This document shows, in pieces, positions 16,291 through 38,606 of a DNA stretch of 64,000 bases. Numbering within the stretch: the stretch's first letter is position 1; the number at the start of each line of letters is the position of its first letter. The position numbers and the translations under genes were made by a program. The notes below the pieces were generated by a model. It saw nothing but the letters and a program-made list of their open reading frames with translations. It was not told the DNA's origin and searched no databases. Source of the stretch: Streptomyces sp. HUAS CB01 (GTDB lineage Bacteria; Actinomycetota; Actinomycetes; Streptomycetales; Streptomycetaceae); contig NZ_CP129137.1 in the NCBI RefSeq assembly GCF_030406905.1, positions 1,739,001-1,803,000 on the forward strand. Reading direction: 5' to 3'.

Positions 16291-17228
16291 TCGCGCCCCA
16301 TGTCCCGGTGGACGACGACGGTCTCGATCCCCTCGGTGCCGAGCCGGGCGGCGAGCTTCTCGGACATCGCGACGGAGCGGTGCTTGCCGCCCGTGCAGCC
16401 CACGGCGATCGTCACGTACCGCTTGCCCTCGCGGCGGTAGCCCGCCGCGATCAGCTGCAGCAGCTCGGTGTACTGGTTGAGGAACTCCTTGGCCCCGGGC
16501 TGGTCGAACACATAGCCCGACACCTCCTCGTTCAGGCCGGTGAAGGGGCGCAGCTCGGGGACCCAGTGCGGGTTGGGCAGGAAGCGGCAGTCCACCACCA
16601 GGTCGGCGTCGACGGGCAGGCCGTACTTGTACCCGAACGACATCACCGTGGCCCGCAGCTCCGGCTCCTCGTCGCCGGCGAACTGGGCGTCCATCTTGGC
16701 GCGCAGCTCGTGGACGTTGAGGCTGGAGGTGTCGATCACGAGGTCGGCGTCGCCGCGCAGCTCCCGCAGGAGGTCCCGCTCGGCGGCGATGCCGTCGACG
16801 ATCCGGCCGTCGCCCTGCAGCGGGTGCGGGCGGCGCACGGACTCGAAACGGCGCACCAGGGCCTCGTCGGACGACTCCAGGAAGACGATCCGGCGGGTGA
16901 CCTGCTTGGCGTCGAGGTCCGCGAGCGACTCGCGGAGGTTGTCGAAGAACCGCCGGCCGCGGACGTCCACGACGACGGCGATCCGGGCGACGTTGCCCTG
17001 GGAACGTGCGCCGAGCTCCACCATGGTGGGGATCAGCGCGGGCGGCAGGTTGTCCACGACGAACCAGCCGAGGTCCTCCAGGCACTTCGCCGCGGTGCTG
17101 CGGCCGGCGCCCGACATTCCGGAGATGATCACCAGCTCGGGGATGGCCGCCTCTGCGGCCTGCCCGGCCTCGGTCGTGCCCGTACTCACGTCTCCTGCTC
17201 CGTGTTCTCGTCTGTTCCGCTCGGTCAT
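16287..17228 (-). CDS. rapZ: RNase adapter / nucleotide-binding protein RapZ
   Basis: A 313-residue P-loop protein of the RapZ (YvcJ) family. Walker A is GMSGAGRS at residues 37-44; the C-terminal domain has [24 protein letters not shown] and [12 protein letters not shown], both family signatures. In E. coli RapZ adapts RNase E to the sRNA GlmZ; the actinobacterial role is not established. The ATG overlaps the uvrC stop and the stop overlaps the yvcK GTG, so translation is coupled both ways. Confidence 0.93.
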
Positions 17229-19255
17229 TCCGTGGTTCCCCCGTTCCCTTCCGTCACTGCTGCCCCGTCTTCCTCTTCAATGATCTCGCCTGTCGCCATG
17301 TTGACCGCCGGGGCGGCCGGCGCGGCCTGCGCCAGGGCAACGGCCACGGACTCGGCGGTCTTCCTGCCGAAGCCCGGGACCTCGCAGATCTGCTCGACGG
17401 TCGCCTGCCGGAGCCGCTTCACCGAGCCGAAGTGCTTGATCAGCGCCTGCTTGCGAGCCTCCCCCAGGCCCGGCACGGAGTCCAGCGGGCTGGTCCGCAG
17501 CCGCTTGGTGCGCTTGGAGCGCTGGTAGCGGATCGCGAAGTCGTGAGCGGTGTCGCGCACCCGCTGGATGAGGTACAGCCCTTCGCTGGAGCGGGGCAGC
17601 ACGACCGGGTCGTCCTCCCCCGGCAGCCACACCTCCTCCATGCGCTTGGCGATGCCGGCGACGGCGACGTCGTCGATGCCCAGCTCGTCCAGGGCCCGCC
17701 GGGCCGCCGCGACCTGCGGCTGCCCGCCGTCGACGAGCACCAGCTGCGGCGGGTAGGCGAACCGCTTGGGCCTGCCGTCGTCCCCCGTGGCCGCCGGCAC
17801 CTCCCCGCCCGTCACGGCCTCGCCGTCCTCCGGGACGGCCCACTCGCCGGTCTTCTCCCGCTCGGCGAGATACCGCCGGAAGCGCCGGCTGATCACCTCG
17901 TGCATCGAGCGGACGTCGTCCTGGCCCTCGAAGCCCTTGATCTGGAAGCGCCGGTACTCGCTCTTGCGGGGCAGGCCGTCCTCGAACACCACCATGGACG
18001 CGACCACGTCCTCGCCCTGCAGGTGCGAGATGTCGAAGCACTCGATCCGCAGCGGCGCCGAGTCCAGGTCGAGCGCCTCCGCGATCTCCTCCAGGGCCCG
18101 GGAGCGGGTCGTCAGATCGCTCGCGCGCTTGGTCTTGTGCAGGACGAGGGCCTGCTGGGCATTGCGCCCGACCGTCGCCATCAGGTCCTTCTTGTCGCCG
18201 CGCTGCGGGATGCGCAGCGACACGGCCGAGCCCCGGCGGTCGCTGAGCCACTGGGTGACCGCGGCGAGGTCCTCGGGCAGGGCGGGGACGAGCACCTCCT
18301 TGGGGACGGCGTCGCCGCTCTCCTCCCCGTACAGCTGCTGGAGCGCGTGCTCCACGAGGCCTGACGTGTCGACGGCCTCGACCTTGTCGGTGACCCAGCC
18401 GCGCTGTCCGCGCACCCGCCCGCCGCGGACGTGGAAGATCTGGACGGCGGCCTCCAGCTCGTCCTCGGCGACCGCGATCAGGTCCGCGTCGGTGGCGTCG
18501 GCCAGCACCACCGCGTTCTTCTCCATGGCGCGCTTCAGGGCCTCTATGTCGTCCCGCAGCCGGGCGGCCCGCTCGTACTCCATGTCCTCGGCCGCCACCA
18601 TCATGTCCTTCTCCAGGCGGCGGATGTACGTGCCGGTGCGGCCGGCCATGAAGTCGCAGAAATCCTCGGCCAGTTCGCGGTGCTCGCCGGCGCCGGTCCT
18701 GCCGACACAGGGCGCGGAGCACTTGCCGATGTAGCCCAGCAGGCATGGCCTGCCGGTGCGCTCCGCGTTCTTGAAGACCCCGGCGGAGCAGGTGCGCACC
18801 GGGAAGACCCGGAGCATCAGGTCGACCGTCTCGCGGATCGCCCACGCGTGCGCGTACGGGCCGAAGTAGCGCACGCCCTTCTTCTTGGCGCCGCGCATCA
18901 CCTGGACCCGCGGGAACTCCTCGTTCATGGTCACCGCGAGGTACGGGTAGCTCTTGTCGTCCCGGTACTTGACGTTGAACCGGGGGTCGAACTCCTTGAT
19001 CCAGGAGTACTCCAGCTGGAGCGCCTCCACCTCCGTGGAGACGACCGTCCACTCCACGGACGCCGCGGTCGTGACCATCGTGCGGGTGCGCGGATGCAGA
19101 CCCGCCAGGTCCTGGAAGTAGTTGGCCAGCCGCTGCCGCAGACTCTTCGCCTTGCCGACGTAGATCACCCGGCGGTGCGCGTCGCGGAACTTGTAGACCC
19201 CTGGCGAGTCGGGGATCTGTCCCGGCTTGGGGCGGTAGCTGGAGGGGTCTGCCAT
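17225..19255 (-). CDS. uvrC: excinuclease ABC subunit C
   Basis: A 676-residue UvrC, the nuclease of nucleotide excision repair that cuts on both sides of a lesion after UvrA and UvrB. The GIY-YIG domain opens the protein (GVY at 19-21, YVG at 32-34), the C-terminal endonuclease region includes [10 protein letters not shown] and VDGGQPQV, and a double helix-hairpin-helix ([36 protein letters not shown]) ends it. The ATG at 19255 is 7 bp after a TAGGGT hexamer, so the mRNA is probably leaderless. It is the first gene of the uvrC-rapZ-yvcK-whiA operon. Confidence 0.96.
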
Positions 19256-19631
19256 GCCGCCCACCCTACTGGCGGGCACGGACAACCGGGGCCGCCGGAG
19301 GGGCGGCGCGGGCCCGCTCCCGCGCCCGGGCGGCGGCCCGGTGCCCGGCCCGTCGCAGGAGGGTCCGGCAGGGAGCCGCCGCTACGGCGGGTGTCCGTTC
19401 CCTCACCGTTCGGCGGGGGCATTTCCGGGCGCTTCGGCCGGGCTCCCGCGCCCTTCGGACCGGCACCCGGACAACCGTTGTCCGGACGGGACCGACACGC
19501 TTCAATGCGGGGTGACACGCGGCTGTGCCGGCGGCCCCAAGGTCCCTCGCCGCCGCCATCGGCCCTTCCGCACGCCCCGCCCCCGGCACGAGGTCCCACC
19601 GGGCAGGCGTGAACGTCCATCGAGGAGTCCC
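19256..19631. other. 376-bp intergenic region, uvrC and HTH-like gene (divergent)
   Basis: It contains the uvrC promoter at its left edge. The rest is GC-rich without a recognisable gene. GACAACCGTTGTCCGG near 19471 is a small palindrome. A GAGGAG ribosome site lies just before the ATG at 19632. I see no clear promoter for the rightward gene. Confidence 0.5.
19263..19285 (-). promoter_or_regulatory. PafBC/RecA-NDp-type DNA-damage promoter of uvrC
   Basis: Reading leftwards: TTGTCCGTGCC, 6 bp, TAGGGT, 7 bp, ATG. The recalled consensus is TTGTCAGTGGC-N6-TAGGGT, so 9 of 11 upstream bases and all six -10 bases match. The predicted transcript begins at or next to the start codon. Confidence 0.75.
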
Positions 19632-22554: not shown

Positions 22555-25500
22555 TCAGGCCTTGCGGGCGCGGCTCCGTGTCGCTGCGGCCTTCTTGACC
22601 GGGGTCGCGTCGGCCGTCACCGTCTTCTTCCGCACCGGCGTGGAATTGGCCGAGACCGCCTTCCTCGACGCGGTCTTCTTCGCCGCCGTCTTGCGGGACT
22701 GCGGCGGCACCGAGTCGCTGATGCGGTCCGGTCCCAGGATGTCCCGCAGGAACTTGCCCGTGTGGCTCGTCGGCACCGCGGCGACCTGCTCGGGCGTGCC
22801 CTCGGCGATCACGAGGCCACCGCCGCTGCCGCCCTCGGGCCCCATGTCGACGACCCAGTCGGCGGTCTTGATCACATCGAGGTTGTGCTCGATCACGATC
22901 ACCGTGTTGCCCTTGTCGACCAGTCCGGACAGCACGTTGATCAGCTTGGAGATGTCCTCGAAGTGCAGACCCGTGGTCGGCTCGTCCAGCACGTAGACCG
23001 TGCGGCCGGTGGACCGCTTCTGCAGCTCGCTCGCGAGCTTCACCCGCTGTGCCTCACCACCGGAGAGCGTCGGCGCCGGCTGGCCGAGCCTGACGTACCC
23101 GAGACCCACCTCGGTCAGCGTCTTGAGGTGACGGGAGATCGTCGGCACGGCCTCGAAGAAGTGCAGCGCCTCCTCGATCGGCATGTCCAGCACCTCGGCG
23201 ATGGACTTCCCCTTGTAGTGGACCTCCAGGGTCTCCCGGTTGTACCGGGCACCGTGGCAGACCTCGCACGGGACGTAGACGTCCGGGAGGAAGTTCATCT
23301 CGATCTTGATGGTGCCGTCGCCGGAGCAGTTCTCACAGCGTCCGCCCTTGACGTTGAAGGAGAAGCGGCCCGGCAGATAGCCGCGCACCTTCGCCTCCAT
23401 CGTCTCCGCGAAGAGCTTGCGCACGTGGTCGAAGACGCCGGTGTAGGTCGCCGGGTTGGACCGGGGCGTGCGTCCGATGGGCGACTGGTCGACGTGGACG
23501 ACCTTGTCGACGAGGTCGTCGCCGTCCACGCGGGTGTGCCGGCCCGGCACCGACTTGGCACCGTTCAGCTCGCGCGCCAGATGCGTGTACAGGATGTCGT
23601 TCACCAGCGTGGACTTGCCGGAGCCGGAGACGCCGGTGACCGCCGTGAGCACACCGAGCGGGAACGACACGTCGATGTCCCGGAGGTTGTTCTCCCGGGC
23701 GCCGTGCACCGTGAGCCGGCGGGCCCCGTCCACGGGCCGCCGGATCTCCGGCGTCGCGATGGACTTCTTCCCGGACAGGTACAGCCCGGTCATCGAGTCC
23801 TTGTTGGCCAGCAGCTGCTTCAGCGGTCCGGAGTGGACGACCTTGCCGCCGTGCTCGCCGGCGCCCGGGCCGATGTCCACGACCCAGTCGGCGACCTTGA
23901 TCGTGTCCTCGTCGTGCTCGACGACGATCAGGGTGTTGCCCATGTCGCGGAGCCGCACCAGGGTCTCGATGAGCCGGTGGTTGTCGCGCTGGTGAAGTCC
24001 GATGGACGGCTCGTCCAGCACGTACAGCACGCCCACCAGCCCGGAGCCGATCTGGGTGGCCAGCCGGATGCGCTGTGCCTCGCCGCCGGACAGCGTGCCC
24101 GCCGCCCGGTTGAGGGAGAGGTAGTCCAGACCGACGTCGACCAGGAACCGCAGCCGCTCGTTGACCTCCTTGAGCACCCGCTCGGCGATCTTCTTGTCGC
24201 GTGCGGTGAGCGTCAGCCTTCCCAGGAAGTCGGCGCACTCGCTGATGGACATGGCCGAGACCTCGGCGATCGACCTCTCCATGATCGTCACTGCCAGGAC
24301 GATCGGCTTCAGCCGGGTGCCGTCACAGGTGGGGCAGGGCACCTCGCGCATGTAGCCCTCGAAGCGCTCCCGGCTGGAGTCGCTCTCCGCCTCGCTGTGG
24401 CGCCGCTTGACGAAGGACACCGCGCCCTCGAACGCCGGGGTGGTGTAGGCGCGCTCCCGCCCGTACCGGTTCCGGTAGCGGACCTCGACCTGGGTCTTGT
24501 GGCCGTACAGCAGGGCCTTCTTGGCGCGCTGCGGAAGCCCGGCCCACGGAATGTCGGTGCGGAAGCCGAGGGCGTCGGCGAGCCCGCCGATGAGGCGCCC
24601 GAAGTACTCCTTGGTGTGGCCGTGCGACCAGGGGTGGATGGCACCGTCGTCGAGGGAGCGGTCCTCGTCCGGGACGATCAGCTCGGGGTCGACCTCCATC
24701 CGCGTGCCGATGCCGGTGCAGTCGGGGCAGGCTCCGAACGGCGAGTTGAAGGAGAACGAGCGGGGTTCGAGCTCCTCGAAGGAGAGGTCGTCGTACGGGC
24801 AGTACAGGTGCTCCGAGTACATCCGCTCGCGCTCGGGGTCGTCCTCGGGGAGGTCGACGAAGTCCAGCACGACCATGCCGCCGGACAGGCCCAGCGCGGT
24901 CTCCACGGAGTCCGTGAGCCGGCGCTTGGCGCTCTCCTTGACGGTCAGGCGGTCGATGACCACCTCGATCGTGTGCTTCTCCTGCTTCTTCAGCTTCGGC
25001 GGCTCGGTGAGCTGGATCGTCTGCCCGTCGACCCGCGCTCGCGCATAGCCCTTGGACTGGAGGTCGGCGAAGAGGTCCACGAACTCGCCCTTGCGCTCCC
25101 GCACCAGCGGCGACAGCACCTGGAAGCGGCTGCCCTCGGGCAGCTCAAGCACCTTGTCGACGATGGCCTGCGGGGACTGGCGCGTGATGGGGCGGCCGCA
25201 CTCCGGGCAGTGCGGCTTGCCGATGCGCGCGAAGAGCAGCCGGAGGTAGTCGTAGACCTCGGTGATCGTGCCCACGGTCGAGCGGGGGTTCCGCGAGGTG
25301 GACTTCTGGTCGATCGAGACGGCCGGGGAGAGGCCCTCGATGAAGTCCACGTCCGGCTTGTCCATCTGGCCCAGGAACTGCCGGGCGTAGGAGGACAGCG
25401 ACTCGACGTAGCGGCGCTGTCCCTCGGCGAAGATCGTGTCGAACGCGAGCGACGACTTGCCCGACCCCGAGAGCCCGGTGAAGACGATGAGTGAGTCACG

Positions 25501-25569
25501 CGGGAGGTCGAGCGAGACGTTCTTGAGGTTGTGCTCGCGAGCGCCACGGACGATGAGACGGTCGGCCAC
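22555..25569 (-). CDS. uvrA: excinuclease ABC subunit A
   Basis: A 1004-residue UvrA, the damage-scanning ABC ATPase of nucleotide excision repair. It has two ATPase modules: Walker [10 protein letters not shown] (residues 32-40) and GVSGSGKST in the second half, with two LSGGEAQR signatures. Zinc-binding cysteines are seen in [24 protein letters not shown] and the CENCSGDG / CEVCHGARY pair. A Lys/Ala/Thr-rich tail of about 50 residues extends past the usual end, as in other streptomycetes. The 225-bp upstream gap lacks a good copy of the damage promoter found at uvrB and uvrC and no LexA box is obvious. Confidence 0.97.
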
Positions 25570-34371: not shown

Positions 34372-36531
34372 TCAGGCGATACCGGCTTCCTTCATCTGCC
34401 GCAGCTCCTTCTTCAGTTCGCCGACCTCGTCGCGCAGGCGTGCGGCGACCTCGAACTGGAGCTCCGCCGCCGCGGCGCGCATCCGGTCCGTCATCTCCTC
34501 GATGATCCCGGCCAGTTCGGCGGCCGGCCGGTCGCTCGTGATCGCTCCCTTGCCCGCCTTCGCGGACTTGCCGGCCTTGGCGCCCTTGCCGTCGGCCCCC
34601 TTGACGGCGTGCGCGGCCAGCGACGGAACGGGTGCCTTGGCCCCCTTGCCGTCCTTGCCCTGCCGATAGCCGCTGCCGAGCAGCTGCTCGGTGTCGACCT
34701 CCTCGCGGGCGATGGTGGCGACGATGTCGTTGATCTTCTTGCGCAGCGGCTGCGGGTCGATGCCGTTCGCCTCGTTGTACGCGATCTGCTTGGCCCGGCG
34801 CCGGTTGGTCTCCTCGATCGCCTTCTCCATCGCCGGAGTGATCTTGTCGGCGTACATGTGGACCTGGCCGGAGACATTGCGCGCCGCGCGGCCGATGGTC
34901 TGGATCAGCGAGGTGCCCGAGCGCAGGAAGCCCTCCTTGTCGGCGTCGAGGATCGCCACCAGCGACACCTCGGGGAGGTCGAGGCCCTCACGGAGGAGGT
35001 TGATGCCGACCAGGACGTCGTACTCACCGGCGCGCAGTTCGCGCAGCAGCTCGATCCGGCGGAGCGTGTCGACGTCGCTGTGCAGATAGCGGACCCGGAC
35101 GCCCAGCTCCAGGAAGTAGTCCGTCAGGTCCTCCGCCATCTTCTTGGTGAGCGTGGTGACGAGGACCCGCTCGTCCTTCTCGGTGCGCGTGCGGATCTCG
35201 TGCACCAGGTCGTCGATCTGGCCCTCGGTCGGCTTGACGACCACCTCCGGGTCGACCAGGCCGGTGGGACGGATGATCTGCTCGACGGAACCGTCGCCGC
35301 GGGAGAGCTCGTAGGCGCCGGGCGTCGCCGACAGATAGACCGTCTGCCCGATCCGCTCCTGGAACTCCTCCCACTTCAGCGGCCGGTTGTCGAGGGCGGA
35401 GGGCAGCCGGAAGCCGTGCTCGACGAGGGTGCGCTTGCGGGAGGCGTCGCCCTCGTACATGGCGCCGATCTGCGGGACCGTCACATGGGACTCGTCGATG
35501 ACCAGGAGGAAGTCCTCCGGGAAGTAGTCGAGGAGCGTGTTCGGCGCGCTGCCCGGCAGGCGGCCGTCGAAGTGCATCGAGTAGTTCTCGACACCGGAGC
35601 AGGTGCCGATCTGGCGCAGCATCTCGATGTCGTACGTGGTGCGCATCCGCAGCCGCTGGGCCTCCAGGAGCTTGCCCTGCTTCTCCAGCTCCGCGAGGCG
35701 TTCCTCGAGCTCGCGCTCGATCCCGGTGATCGCCTTCTCCATCCGCTCCGGACCCGCCACATAGTGGCTGGCCGGGAAGACGTACAGCTCGCGGTCGTCG
35801 CTGATGACCTCGCCCGTGATCGGGTGGAGTGTGGACAGCGCCTCGATCTCGTCGCCGAACATCTCGATCCGGACGGCGAGCTCCTCGTACACCGGGAAGA
35901 TCTCGATGGTGTCGCCGCGGACCCGGAAGGTGCCCCGGGTGAAGGCGAGGTCGTTGCGCGCGTACTGGATGTCCACGAAGCGGCGCAGCAGCTGGTCGCG
36001 GTCGATCTCGTCGCCGACCCGCAGCGGCACCATGCGGTCCACGTACTCCTGCGGGGTGCCGAGGCCGTAGATGCACGAGACGGAGGCGACCACCACGACG
36101 TCCCTGCGGGTCAGCAGGGAGTTCGTGGCGGAGTGGCGCAGCCGCTCGACCTCCTCGTTGATCGAGGAGTCCTTCTCGATGTAGGTGTCCGACTGCGGGA
36201 CGTAGGCCTCGGGCTGGTAGTAGTCGTAGTACGAGACGAAGTACTCGACGGCGTTGTTCGGCAGCAGCTCGCGGAACTCGTTCGCCAGCTGGGCGGCCAG
36301 CGTCTTGTTGGGCGCCATCACGAGGGTCGGGCGCTGGAGCTTCTCGATCATCCAGGCCGTGGTGGCCGACTTGCCGGTGCCGGTCGCACCCAGCAGGACG
36401 ACGTCCTTCTCGCCCGCGCGGACCCGCCGGTCGAGCTCGGCGATGGCCGCGGGCTGGTCACCGCTGGGCTTGTAGGGGCTGACGACCTCGAAGGGCGCCA
36501 TCGTGCGTTCGATCTCGGTAACGGGCCGCAT
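34372..36531 (-). CDS. uvrB: excinuclease ABC subunit B
   Basis: A 719-residue UvrB, the damage-verifying helicase of nucleotide excision repair. Walker A is GATGTGKS (48-55); [23 protein letters not shown] is the beta-hairpin region that wedges into [13 protein letters not shown] is motif II; the C-terminal UVR motif ([32 protein letters not shown]) recruits UvrC. A Lys/Gly/Ala-rich linker ([10 protein letters not shown] ... GKSAKAGKG) precedes UVR. The ATG at 36531 is 7 bp after the -10 of a damage-type promoter. Confidence 0.97.
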
Positions 36532-36538
36532 GCCATCA

Positions 36539-36561
36539 ACCGTACGACCCCCCACTGACAA
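36539..36561 (-). promoter_or_regulatory. PafBC/RecA-NDp-type DNA-damage promoter of uvrB
   Basis: Reading leftwards: TTGTCAGTGGG, 6 bp, TACGGT, 7 bp, ATG. Ten of 11 upstream bases match the recalled consensus TTGTCAGTGGC, with TAcGGT at -10. A leaderless mRNA is predicted. Confidence 0.8.
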
Positions 36562-36635: not shown

Positions 36636-36811
36636 GCGCCGGTGCACGTCGGGCGGCCCCGTGCGGATGGGTGCCGTCAGCGCCGGTGCACGTCGGGCGG
36701 CCCCGTGCGGATGGGTGCCGTCAGCGCCGGTGCACGTCGGGCGGCCCCGTGCGGGTGGGTGCCGTCAGCGCCGGTGCACGTCGGGCGGCCCCGTGCGGGT
36801 GGGTGCCGTCA
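36636..36811. repeat. four tandem copies of a 44-bp unit
   Basis: Units begin at 36636, 36680, 36724 and 36768. They are identical except that copies 1-2 have GCGGATGGG and copies 3-4 have GCGGGTGGG. Each unit has GCACG and CGTGC arms 11 bp apart. Since 44 is not divisible by 3, the array is not a conserved reading frame. It lies between the uvrB promoter and the 3' end of the MHYT gene. Confidence 0.95.
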
Positions 36812-36829
36812 GGGCCGGCGGGCGCGCTG

Positions 36830-38039: not shown

Positions 38040-38062
38040 CTGTCGGTGCCCGGCCGTACGGT
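38040..38062 (+). promoter_or_regulatory. PafBC/RecA-NDp-type promoter of the ogt-type gene
   Basis: CTGTCGGTGCC (38040-38050), 6 bp, TACGGT (38057-38062), then 7 bp to the ATG. Eight of 11 upstream bases match the recalled TTGTCAGTGGC consensus, in the same geometry as uvrB and uvrC. Confidence 0.65.
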
Positions 38063-38069
38063 GGTCCGC

Positions 38070-38606
38070 ATGAAGAGCTTCGAGTGGGCGGTCGTGGACT
38101 CCGGCATCGGGCCGCTGCTGCTCGCCGCGACCGAGGACGGGCTGGTGAGCGTCTCCTTCCATGCCCACGAGCCGGTGCGGGACAGGGCCCTGGAGCACCT
38201 CGCGTCCCGCCTCGGCCGCCGGCCGGTCGAGGACGCGACGGGGTCGGGCCGGCTGGCCGAGCCGATACGCCTGCTCGCGGAGTACTTCGCGGGGCGGCGG
38301 ACGCAGTTCGGGCTGCCGCTGGACTGGTCGCTGACGTCCGGCTTCAACCGCCGGGTGCTGCGCGAGCTCGCGGAGTCCGTGCCGTACGGGACGGTCGTGG
38401 GGTACGGGGAGCTGGCCGACCGGGTGGGCCGTCCCGGCGCCGCCCAGGCCGTGGGCGCGGCGATGGGTTCGAACCCCCTGCCCCTGGTGGTGCCGTGCCA
38501 CCGGGTGGTGGAGAGCGACGGCGGCCTGGGCGGGTTCGGCGGTGGTCCGGAGACCAAGCGGAAGCTGCTGGCGCTGGAGGGCGTGCTGCCCCAGCCGCTC
38601 TTCTGA
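38070..38606 (+). CDS. ogt: methylated-DNA--[protein]-cysteine S-methyltransferase
   Basis: A 178-residue suicide enzyme that removes O6-alkyl groups from guanine. The acceptor is C143 in LVVPCHRVVESDGGLGGFGGG; the helix-turn-helix region PYGTVVGYGELADRVGRPGAAQAVG precedes it. N-terminal domain is of the short Ogt type without an Ada regulatory part. The ATG at 38070 lies 7 bp after a -10 hexamer and has no ribosome site, so leaderless translation is likely. Confidence 0.94.
   Translation: MKSFEWAVVDSGIGPLLLAATEDGLVSVSFHAHEPVRDRALEHLASRLGRRPVEDATGSGRLAEPIRLLAEYFAGRRTQFGLPLDWSLTSGFNRRVLRELAESVPYGTVVGYGELADRVGRPGAAQAVGAAMGSNPLPLVVPCHRVVESDGGLGGFGGGPETKRKLLALEGVLPQPLF

Follow-up and report, generated by a model that had tools for sequence, protein, structure and literature searches.

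The closest described counterparts of the promoter examined here are the RecA-NDp (P1)/PafBC promoters of mycobacteria, for which the consensus tTGTCRgtg-8nt-TannnT has been printed (PMC5656591). In M. smegmatis lacking pafBC the expression of uvrB was 37% lower (PMC5656591), and it was reported that mycobacterial PafBC is switched on by single-stranded DNA and reprograms the housekeeping holoenzyme via sigma adaptation (PMC11804915). According to a review, pafBC sit close downstream of pafA (PMC8223512). RecA-NDp promoters have also been described for Streptomyces recA and SCO6735 (PMC5087735, PMC9411070), with S. coelicolor recA standing in the same promoter alignment as SCO6735 (PMC5087735). 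A first motif search in a 2022 paper pointed to a lack of conservation of the M. smegmatis PafBC motif in S. venezuelae; because that search was negative, the paper left open a RecA/LexA-independent damage response in Streptomyces (PMC9380542). A Streptomyces uvrB with a RecA-NDp promoter was not mentioned in the accessible portions of the open-licence literature that we searched. The recA and SCO6735 promoters share genus and promoter type with the element described below, and differ from it in the gene that they serve. Work by Ahel in 2002 is said to have dealt with recA of S. rimosus.

The element lies in front of uvrB in a window (the whole 64-kb stretch of Streptomyces DNA that was analysed). 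Read directly from the window, minus-strand positions 36561-36529 are TTGTCAGTG-GGGGGTCG-TACGGT-TGATGGC-ATG, with the following parts:

36553..36561, minus strand: nonamer of the PafBC/RecA-NDp type in the uvrB promoter, TTGTCAGTG, 0 mismatches to the printed consensus
36545..36552, minus strand: 8-nt spacer of the uvrB promoter, GGGGGTCG, by sequence
36539..36544, minus strand: -10 hexamer of the uvrB promoter, TACGGT (TAnnnT class), by sequence and conservation
36532..36538, minus strand: 7-nt gap from the -10 to the uvrB start codon, by sequence, with almost no room for a leader
34372..36531, minus strand: uvrB, excinuclease subunit B, ATG start at 36531 (TIGR00631 1068 bits, cut-off 750; NF003673 1072 bits, above its cut-off)

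All nine letters of tTGTCRgtg are found in the uvrB nonamer, and both the 8-nt spacer and TAnnnT follow. The canonical -35 hexamer is TTGACA. No such hexamer was found at the usual place in the uvrB promoter, where the letters 17 nt above the -10 are GCCCGG and agree with TTGACA in 0 of 6 positions. A preliminary description had placed a damage promoter just before uvrB; the string is indeed present there, on the minus strand, and its type is borne out by a RecA-NDp/PafBC consensus match with 0 mismatches and by strong conservation. Nonamer, 8-nt spacer and TAnnnT are the same as in the mycobacterial promoters. The locus differs from these in belonging to a Streptomyces-type genome, in a PafBC dependence that is predicted, in a -10 region at uvrB that is nearly fixed as CGTAC(G/C)GT in the genus and in a start codon that almost always follows at 6-7 nt. 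A tandem repeat with a unit of 44 bp (4.2 copies, 98% match) extends over 36636-36818, upstream of the promoter. Taken together we consider it very probable that the uvrB element is a PafBC-dependent, leaderless promoter of the RecA-NDp type that is free of LexA.

Searching the window with the full consensus returned the uvrB copy as the only perfect match, in agreement with the earlier view that it is the best copy within the 64 kb. At up to 2 mismatches 4 matches were found against 1.14 expected from shuffles, and the pattern RTCRGTGR-N7-TANNRT gave 1 match where 0.02 were expected. In the host genome (8.10 Mb) 80 sites were found at up to 1 mismatch, 17 of them perfect, while a control pattern read backwards gave 5; when the spacer was set to 9 instead of 8, the whole-genome search gave 0 sites. 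A chance origin of the uvrB element was ruled out by the reversed-pattern control, the shuffles and a permuted consensus.

Conservation of the element was followed in 71 distinct genomes of the genus, the host included, and in all 71 it was found 5-7 nt before the uvrB ATG. There were 0 mismatches in 54 genomes, 1 in 15 and 2 in a single genome; the remaining one (L077) has a spacer of N7, was scored as 3 and is the exception to an N8 spacer kept in 70 of the 71. The genus alignment held 73 rows for these 71 genomes, with G013 and G056 present in both genus sets. Nonamer letters 2-5, 7 and 9 (TGTC, G, G) were invariant in the 71 distinct rows, although the rows were aligned on their best match to the consensus, which favours the consensus columns. 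Outside the consensus used for registration, the last four spacer columns (GTCG) were 86-99% conserved, as were the letters C, G and G that stand between TA and T in the -10. In the genus rows the element columns carried 1.3-2.0 bits, the exceptions being the first T and spacer columns 1 and 2. Above the element, columns -60 to -5 carried 0.14-0.95 bits, 53 of the 56 at or below 0.70, and the four columns directly before the nonamer about 1.0-1.1 bits. The -10 region of uvrB is almost constant in the genus, with the sequence CGTAC(G/C)GT. This octamer is common to uvrB (36539-36546, minus strand) and ogt (38055-38062, plus strand) in nearly all genus loci of these two genes that have the element; it goes beyond what the consensus demands, and only 4 of the 80 host-genome sites have it.

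Two further copies of the element were found in the window, in front of uvrC and, beyond what the preliminary description listed, in front of ogt; uvrA serves as a contrast gene:

19263..19285, minus strand: uvrC promoter copy, TTGTCCGTG-N8-TAGGGT, 7 nt before the ATG, 1 mismatch
17225..19255, minus strand: uvrC (NF001824 1106 bits, from a scan of the longer frame 17225-19285)
38040..38062, plus strand: third copy, CTGTCGGTG-N8-TACGGT, 7 nt before the ogt ATG, 1 mismatch
38070..38606, plus strand: ogt, O6-methylguanine-DNA methyltransferase (PF01035 104.9 bits, PF02870 37.9 bits)
22555..25569, minus strand: uvrA, contrast gene, with AAAGGTG 10 nt before its GTG start

The spacing at uvrB had been said to equal that at uvrC, and in both genes N8 is followed by 7 nt to the ATG. 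Genus counts for ogt and uvrC come from 30 loci in 31 genomes searched. At uvrC the element stood 7 nt from the start in 30 of 30 loci, with 1, 2, 3 and 4 mismatches in 12, 8, 6 and 4 of them; TGTC and TAGGGT are kept throughout, save for one locus (L388) that reads CGTC, and it is the GTG end that decays. At ogt the element was present at up to 1 mismatch, 6-7 nt from the start, in 27 of 30 loci (host included) and missing in the other 3. In front of uvrA no PafBC-type site was found at up to 2 mismatches; a weak LexA-like match with 2 mismatches lies 96 bp upstream, and a LexA ChIP peak was reported at uvrA in S. venezuelae (PMC9380542).

LexA SOS boxes, as known from the S. venezuelae regulon, answer to the same occasion, DNA damage. 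As a positive control, the host recA was found to carry TCGAACATCCATTC, which is identical to the LexA box printed for S. venezuelae recA (PMC9380542). Unlike recA, the genes uvrB, uvrC and ogt have LexA-like matches with 4 mismatches at best within the 300 bp upstream. In the 73 genus rows no LexA box was found at up to 2 mismatches in the 300 bp before uvrB, a 3-mismatch match being present in 15, and a 3-mismatch match at 36497-36512 of the window is located inside the uvrB gene. Across the whole genome the pattern TCGAAC-N4-GTTCGA at up to 1 mismatch gave 64 strand matches against 26 for the control, the pattern being palindromic and weak. LexA control of uvrB is unsupported, the box being missing upstream in the host and in the genus rows. 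The independence from LexA that had been predicted for uvrB agrees with this absence of an upstream box, from which it is read.

The 80 host sites show a preferred distance to the start codon. An ATG or GTG opening a coding-like frame was found 6-8 nt past the -10 in 31 of the 80 sites, and exactly 7 nt past it in 21, whereas the 63 other offsets between -5 and 60 summed to 66 such starts, or about 1 each. In 49 of the 80 sites no start codon was found at offset 6-8, and chance must account for part of the 63 sites with one mismatch. Repair- or replication-type domains were recognized in 14 of the 31 products of the offset 6-8 sites: UvrB, UvrC, Ogt, RecA, a DNA polymerase III gamma/tau-like protein, a RadA-like ATPase (the name being based on its domains), a Y-family polymerase, a PolA-like 5'-3' exonuclease end, an AlkZ-like glycosylase, a UvrD-like helicase, two DEAD/Helicase_C proteins that could be other kinds of helicase, one PD-(D/E)XK protein and one RNase_T+BRCT exonuclease. 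The other 17 are not obviously repair proteins and are mixed or without an assigned kind (for example TetR, PrsW, GNAT, DUF4253 and YjbR). Nine products of sites with longer gaps were also scanned and included UDG-like and UvrD-like proteins, RuvC, DNA polymerase III alpha and topoisomerase IV/gyrase A, as well as a transporter, a formyl transferase, an Hsp90-like protein and one without a family. A candidate PafBC-type site is common to a set of repair genes in the host genome. In the host recA (L045) an in-frame GTG lies 7 nt past the -10 and would give a product 12 residues longer than that from the ATG at offset 43.

The short distance to the start bears on translation as well. Pairing with the anti-Shine-Dalgarno sequence was calculated for 30 of the 31 starts at offset 6-8 (recA was omitted) and had a median of -4.0 kcal/mol, against -3.7 for shuffled sequence and -9.9 for eight hand-picked leadered control genes. 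The individual values for uvrB, uvrC and ogt (-5.3, -7.7 and -11.0 kcal/mol) are all better than the shuffled median, and because these three pair as they do, the group makes a stronger leaderless case than they do themselves. The promoter geometry, from which the predicted 5' end is derived, would fit a leaderless uvrB mRNA.

Genes for the putative regulator are present in the host. PafA was identified in the host genome by TIGR03686 (767 bits, cut-off 551), and downstream of pafA lie two adjacent WYL genes whose domains, WYL+WCX and HTH_PafC+WYL+WCX, make them pafB- and pafC-like. By analogy with the mycobacterial work, from which PafBC binding, sigma adaptation, the single-stranded DNA signal and damage induction at uvrB are all inferred, DNA damage would result in the WYL-domain activator PafBC being loaded with single-stranded DNA. 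The loaded PafBC would bind TTGTCAGTG immediately upstream of the uvrB -10 and might let the housekeeping RNA polymerase initiate there without a -35. Transcription would start on or beside the A of the uvrB ATG and would yield a leaderless mRNA, and LexA would be without action on the promoter. That a promoter of this known type is conserved with hardly a change before uvrB in the related genomes suggests that a damage alarm of the mycobacterial type also operates in the host.

Outside the genus, 70 uvrB genes of the class were compared, drawn from 131 non-genus genomes with a uvrB match; 17 were given as loci and 53 were chosen as one per remaining genus, and tblastn was used to locate loci. 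With a start 5-9 nt away, 7, 27, 40 and 52 of the 70 carried the element at up to 0, 1, 2 and 3 mismatches. In 300 trials with a permuted consensus the means were 0, 0.02, 0.18 and 0.98 and the maxima 0, 4, 20 and 37, high values that may come from permutations near the original consensus. More than 3 mismatches were found in 18 of the 70, and in 17 of those 18 genomes a PafC-like match was present. Among 394 genomes of the class at a completeness of at least 97% the PafC-like domain was found in 389, and in the 5 without a match the uvrB copies had 6, 3, 6, 2 and 5 mismatches; a perfect uvrB copy occurs in G118, a genome that is 91% complete and has no PafC match. Since negatives are few (5 of 394) and G118 has a perfect copy, the test of co-occurrence between PafC and the motif is powerless. 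In the 5 PafC-negative genomes (L416, L420, L422, L426 and L428) the uvrB ATG is preceded at 6 nt by a TAnnnT and the nonamer is decayed to a varying degree, TAnnnT having counted towards the score by which the frames were chosen; as TAnnnT remains in these genomes, nonamer and leaderless -10 may be separable. Four loci from four genera of one family (L143, L153, L161 and L170, family f16) have at uvrB CTGTCGG, then TGTGGTGTT(C/G)T in place of the TAnnnT -10.

Several other explanations were weighed against a PafBC-dependent promoter. The promoter class might be real and yet be served in Streptomyces by a different activator, ClgR or another WYL regulator that reads the nonamer, with PafBC having a different role. 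ClgR was earlier reported to recognise a P1-type motif in M. smegmatis (PMC5656591), WYL domains occur at 6 places in the host genome, the pafBC-like pair accounting for two, and the presence of PafC could not be linked to the motif by co-occurrence. On the other hand, the binding sites of M. smegmatis PafBC yield a motif closely resembling RecA-NDp (PMC8223512), and the PafC-like domain, in 389 of 394 class genomes, matches the reach of the motif; we judge a different activator to be unlikely. That the element is an ordinary housekeeping-sigma promoter, with the nonamer as a constitutive upstream element and uvrB not inducible by damage, appears very unlikely. The TAnnnT located 6 nt ahead of the uvrB start in the 5 PafC-negative genomes, where the nonamer is mostly decayed and the frames were scored on TAnnnT, speaks for it, and since this hexamer occurs there without an intact nonamer, a basal leaderless uvrB promoter may work without one. 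Such a constitutive role agrees poorly with a nonamer that is near-invariant in the genus and common to many repair genes of the host, and UV induces S. coelicolor SCO6735, whose promoter is of the same type as that of uvrB (PMC5087735).

It is more improbable still that uvrB is leadered from a distal promoter, with GGTTGAT/GGTGGAT as a Shine-Dalgarno sequence and the element as a secondary one. At the second base past the -10, 99% of the genus rows have G, and a weak pairing with 16S rRNA is possible at uvrB (-5.3 kcal/mol), as a leader would have it, but the 30 starts pair about like shuffled sequence and the 44-bp tandem repeat occupies 36636-36818 upstream. Nor is a shared distal promoter visible in the 60 bp above the element, because columns -60 to -5 carry 0.14-0.95 bits, with 53 of 56 at or below 0.70. 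On the preferred reading, a probable PafBC-dependent and leaderless promoter, uvrB is a new location for a kind of promoter already known, and a regulon is likely to stand behind it.

With regard to the 2022 search, the data from the genus argue, at the level of sequence, against non-conservation of the motif, S. venezuelae itself lying outside the named genomes; it was not among the at least 120 matches listed in the named collection for a pattern taken from the uvrB start region of the genus. These data argue that a PafBC response exists in Streptomyces. We would go further only tentatively, putting at somewhat below an even chance the proposal that Streptomyces has a PafBC regulon of tens of genes, with repair prominent, which the published motif search missed and much of which would be leaderless by design. 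One rigid module would be formed by the activator site, the -10 and the start codon, and damage-induced repair proteins would be made from leaderless mRNAs without Shine-Dalgarno pairing. Excision repair would then be split in this window, with uvrB, uvrC and ogt on PafBC and uvrA on a leadered, possibly LexA-bound promoter.

The host site set names candidate target genes, and the uvrB element supplies a reporter. Together, a uvrB element that hardly varies and an enrichment of sites across the genome are a strong reason to expect a damage response independent of RecA/LexA, and the fixed distance to the start codon ties a stress regulon to leaderless translation.
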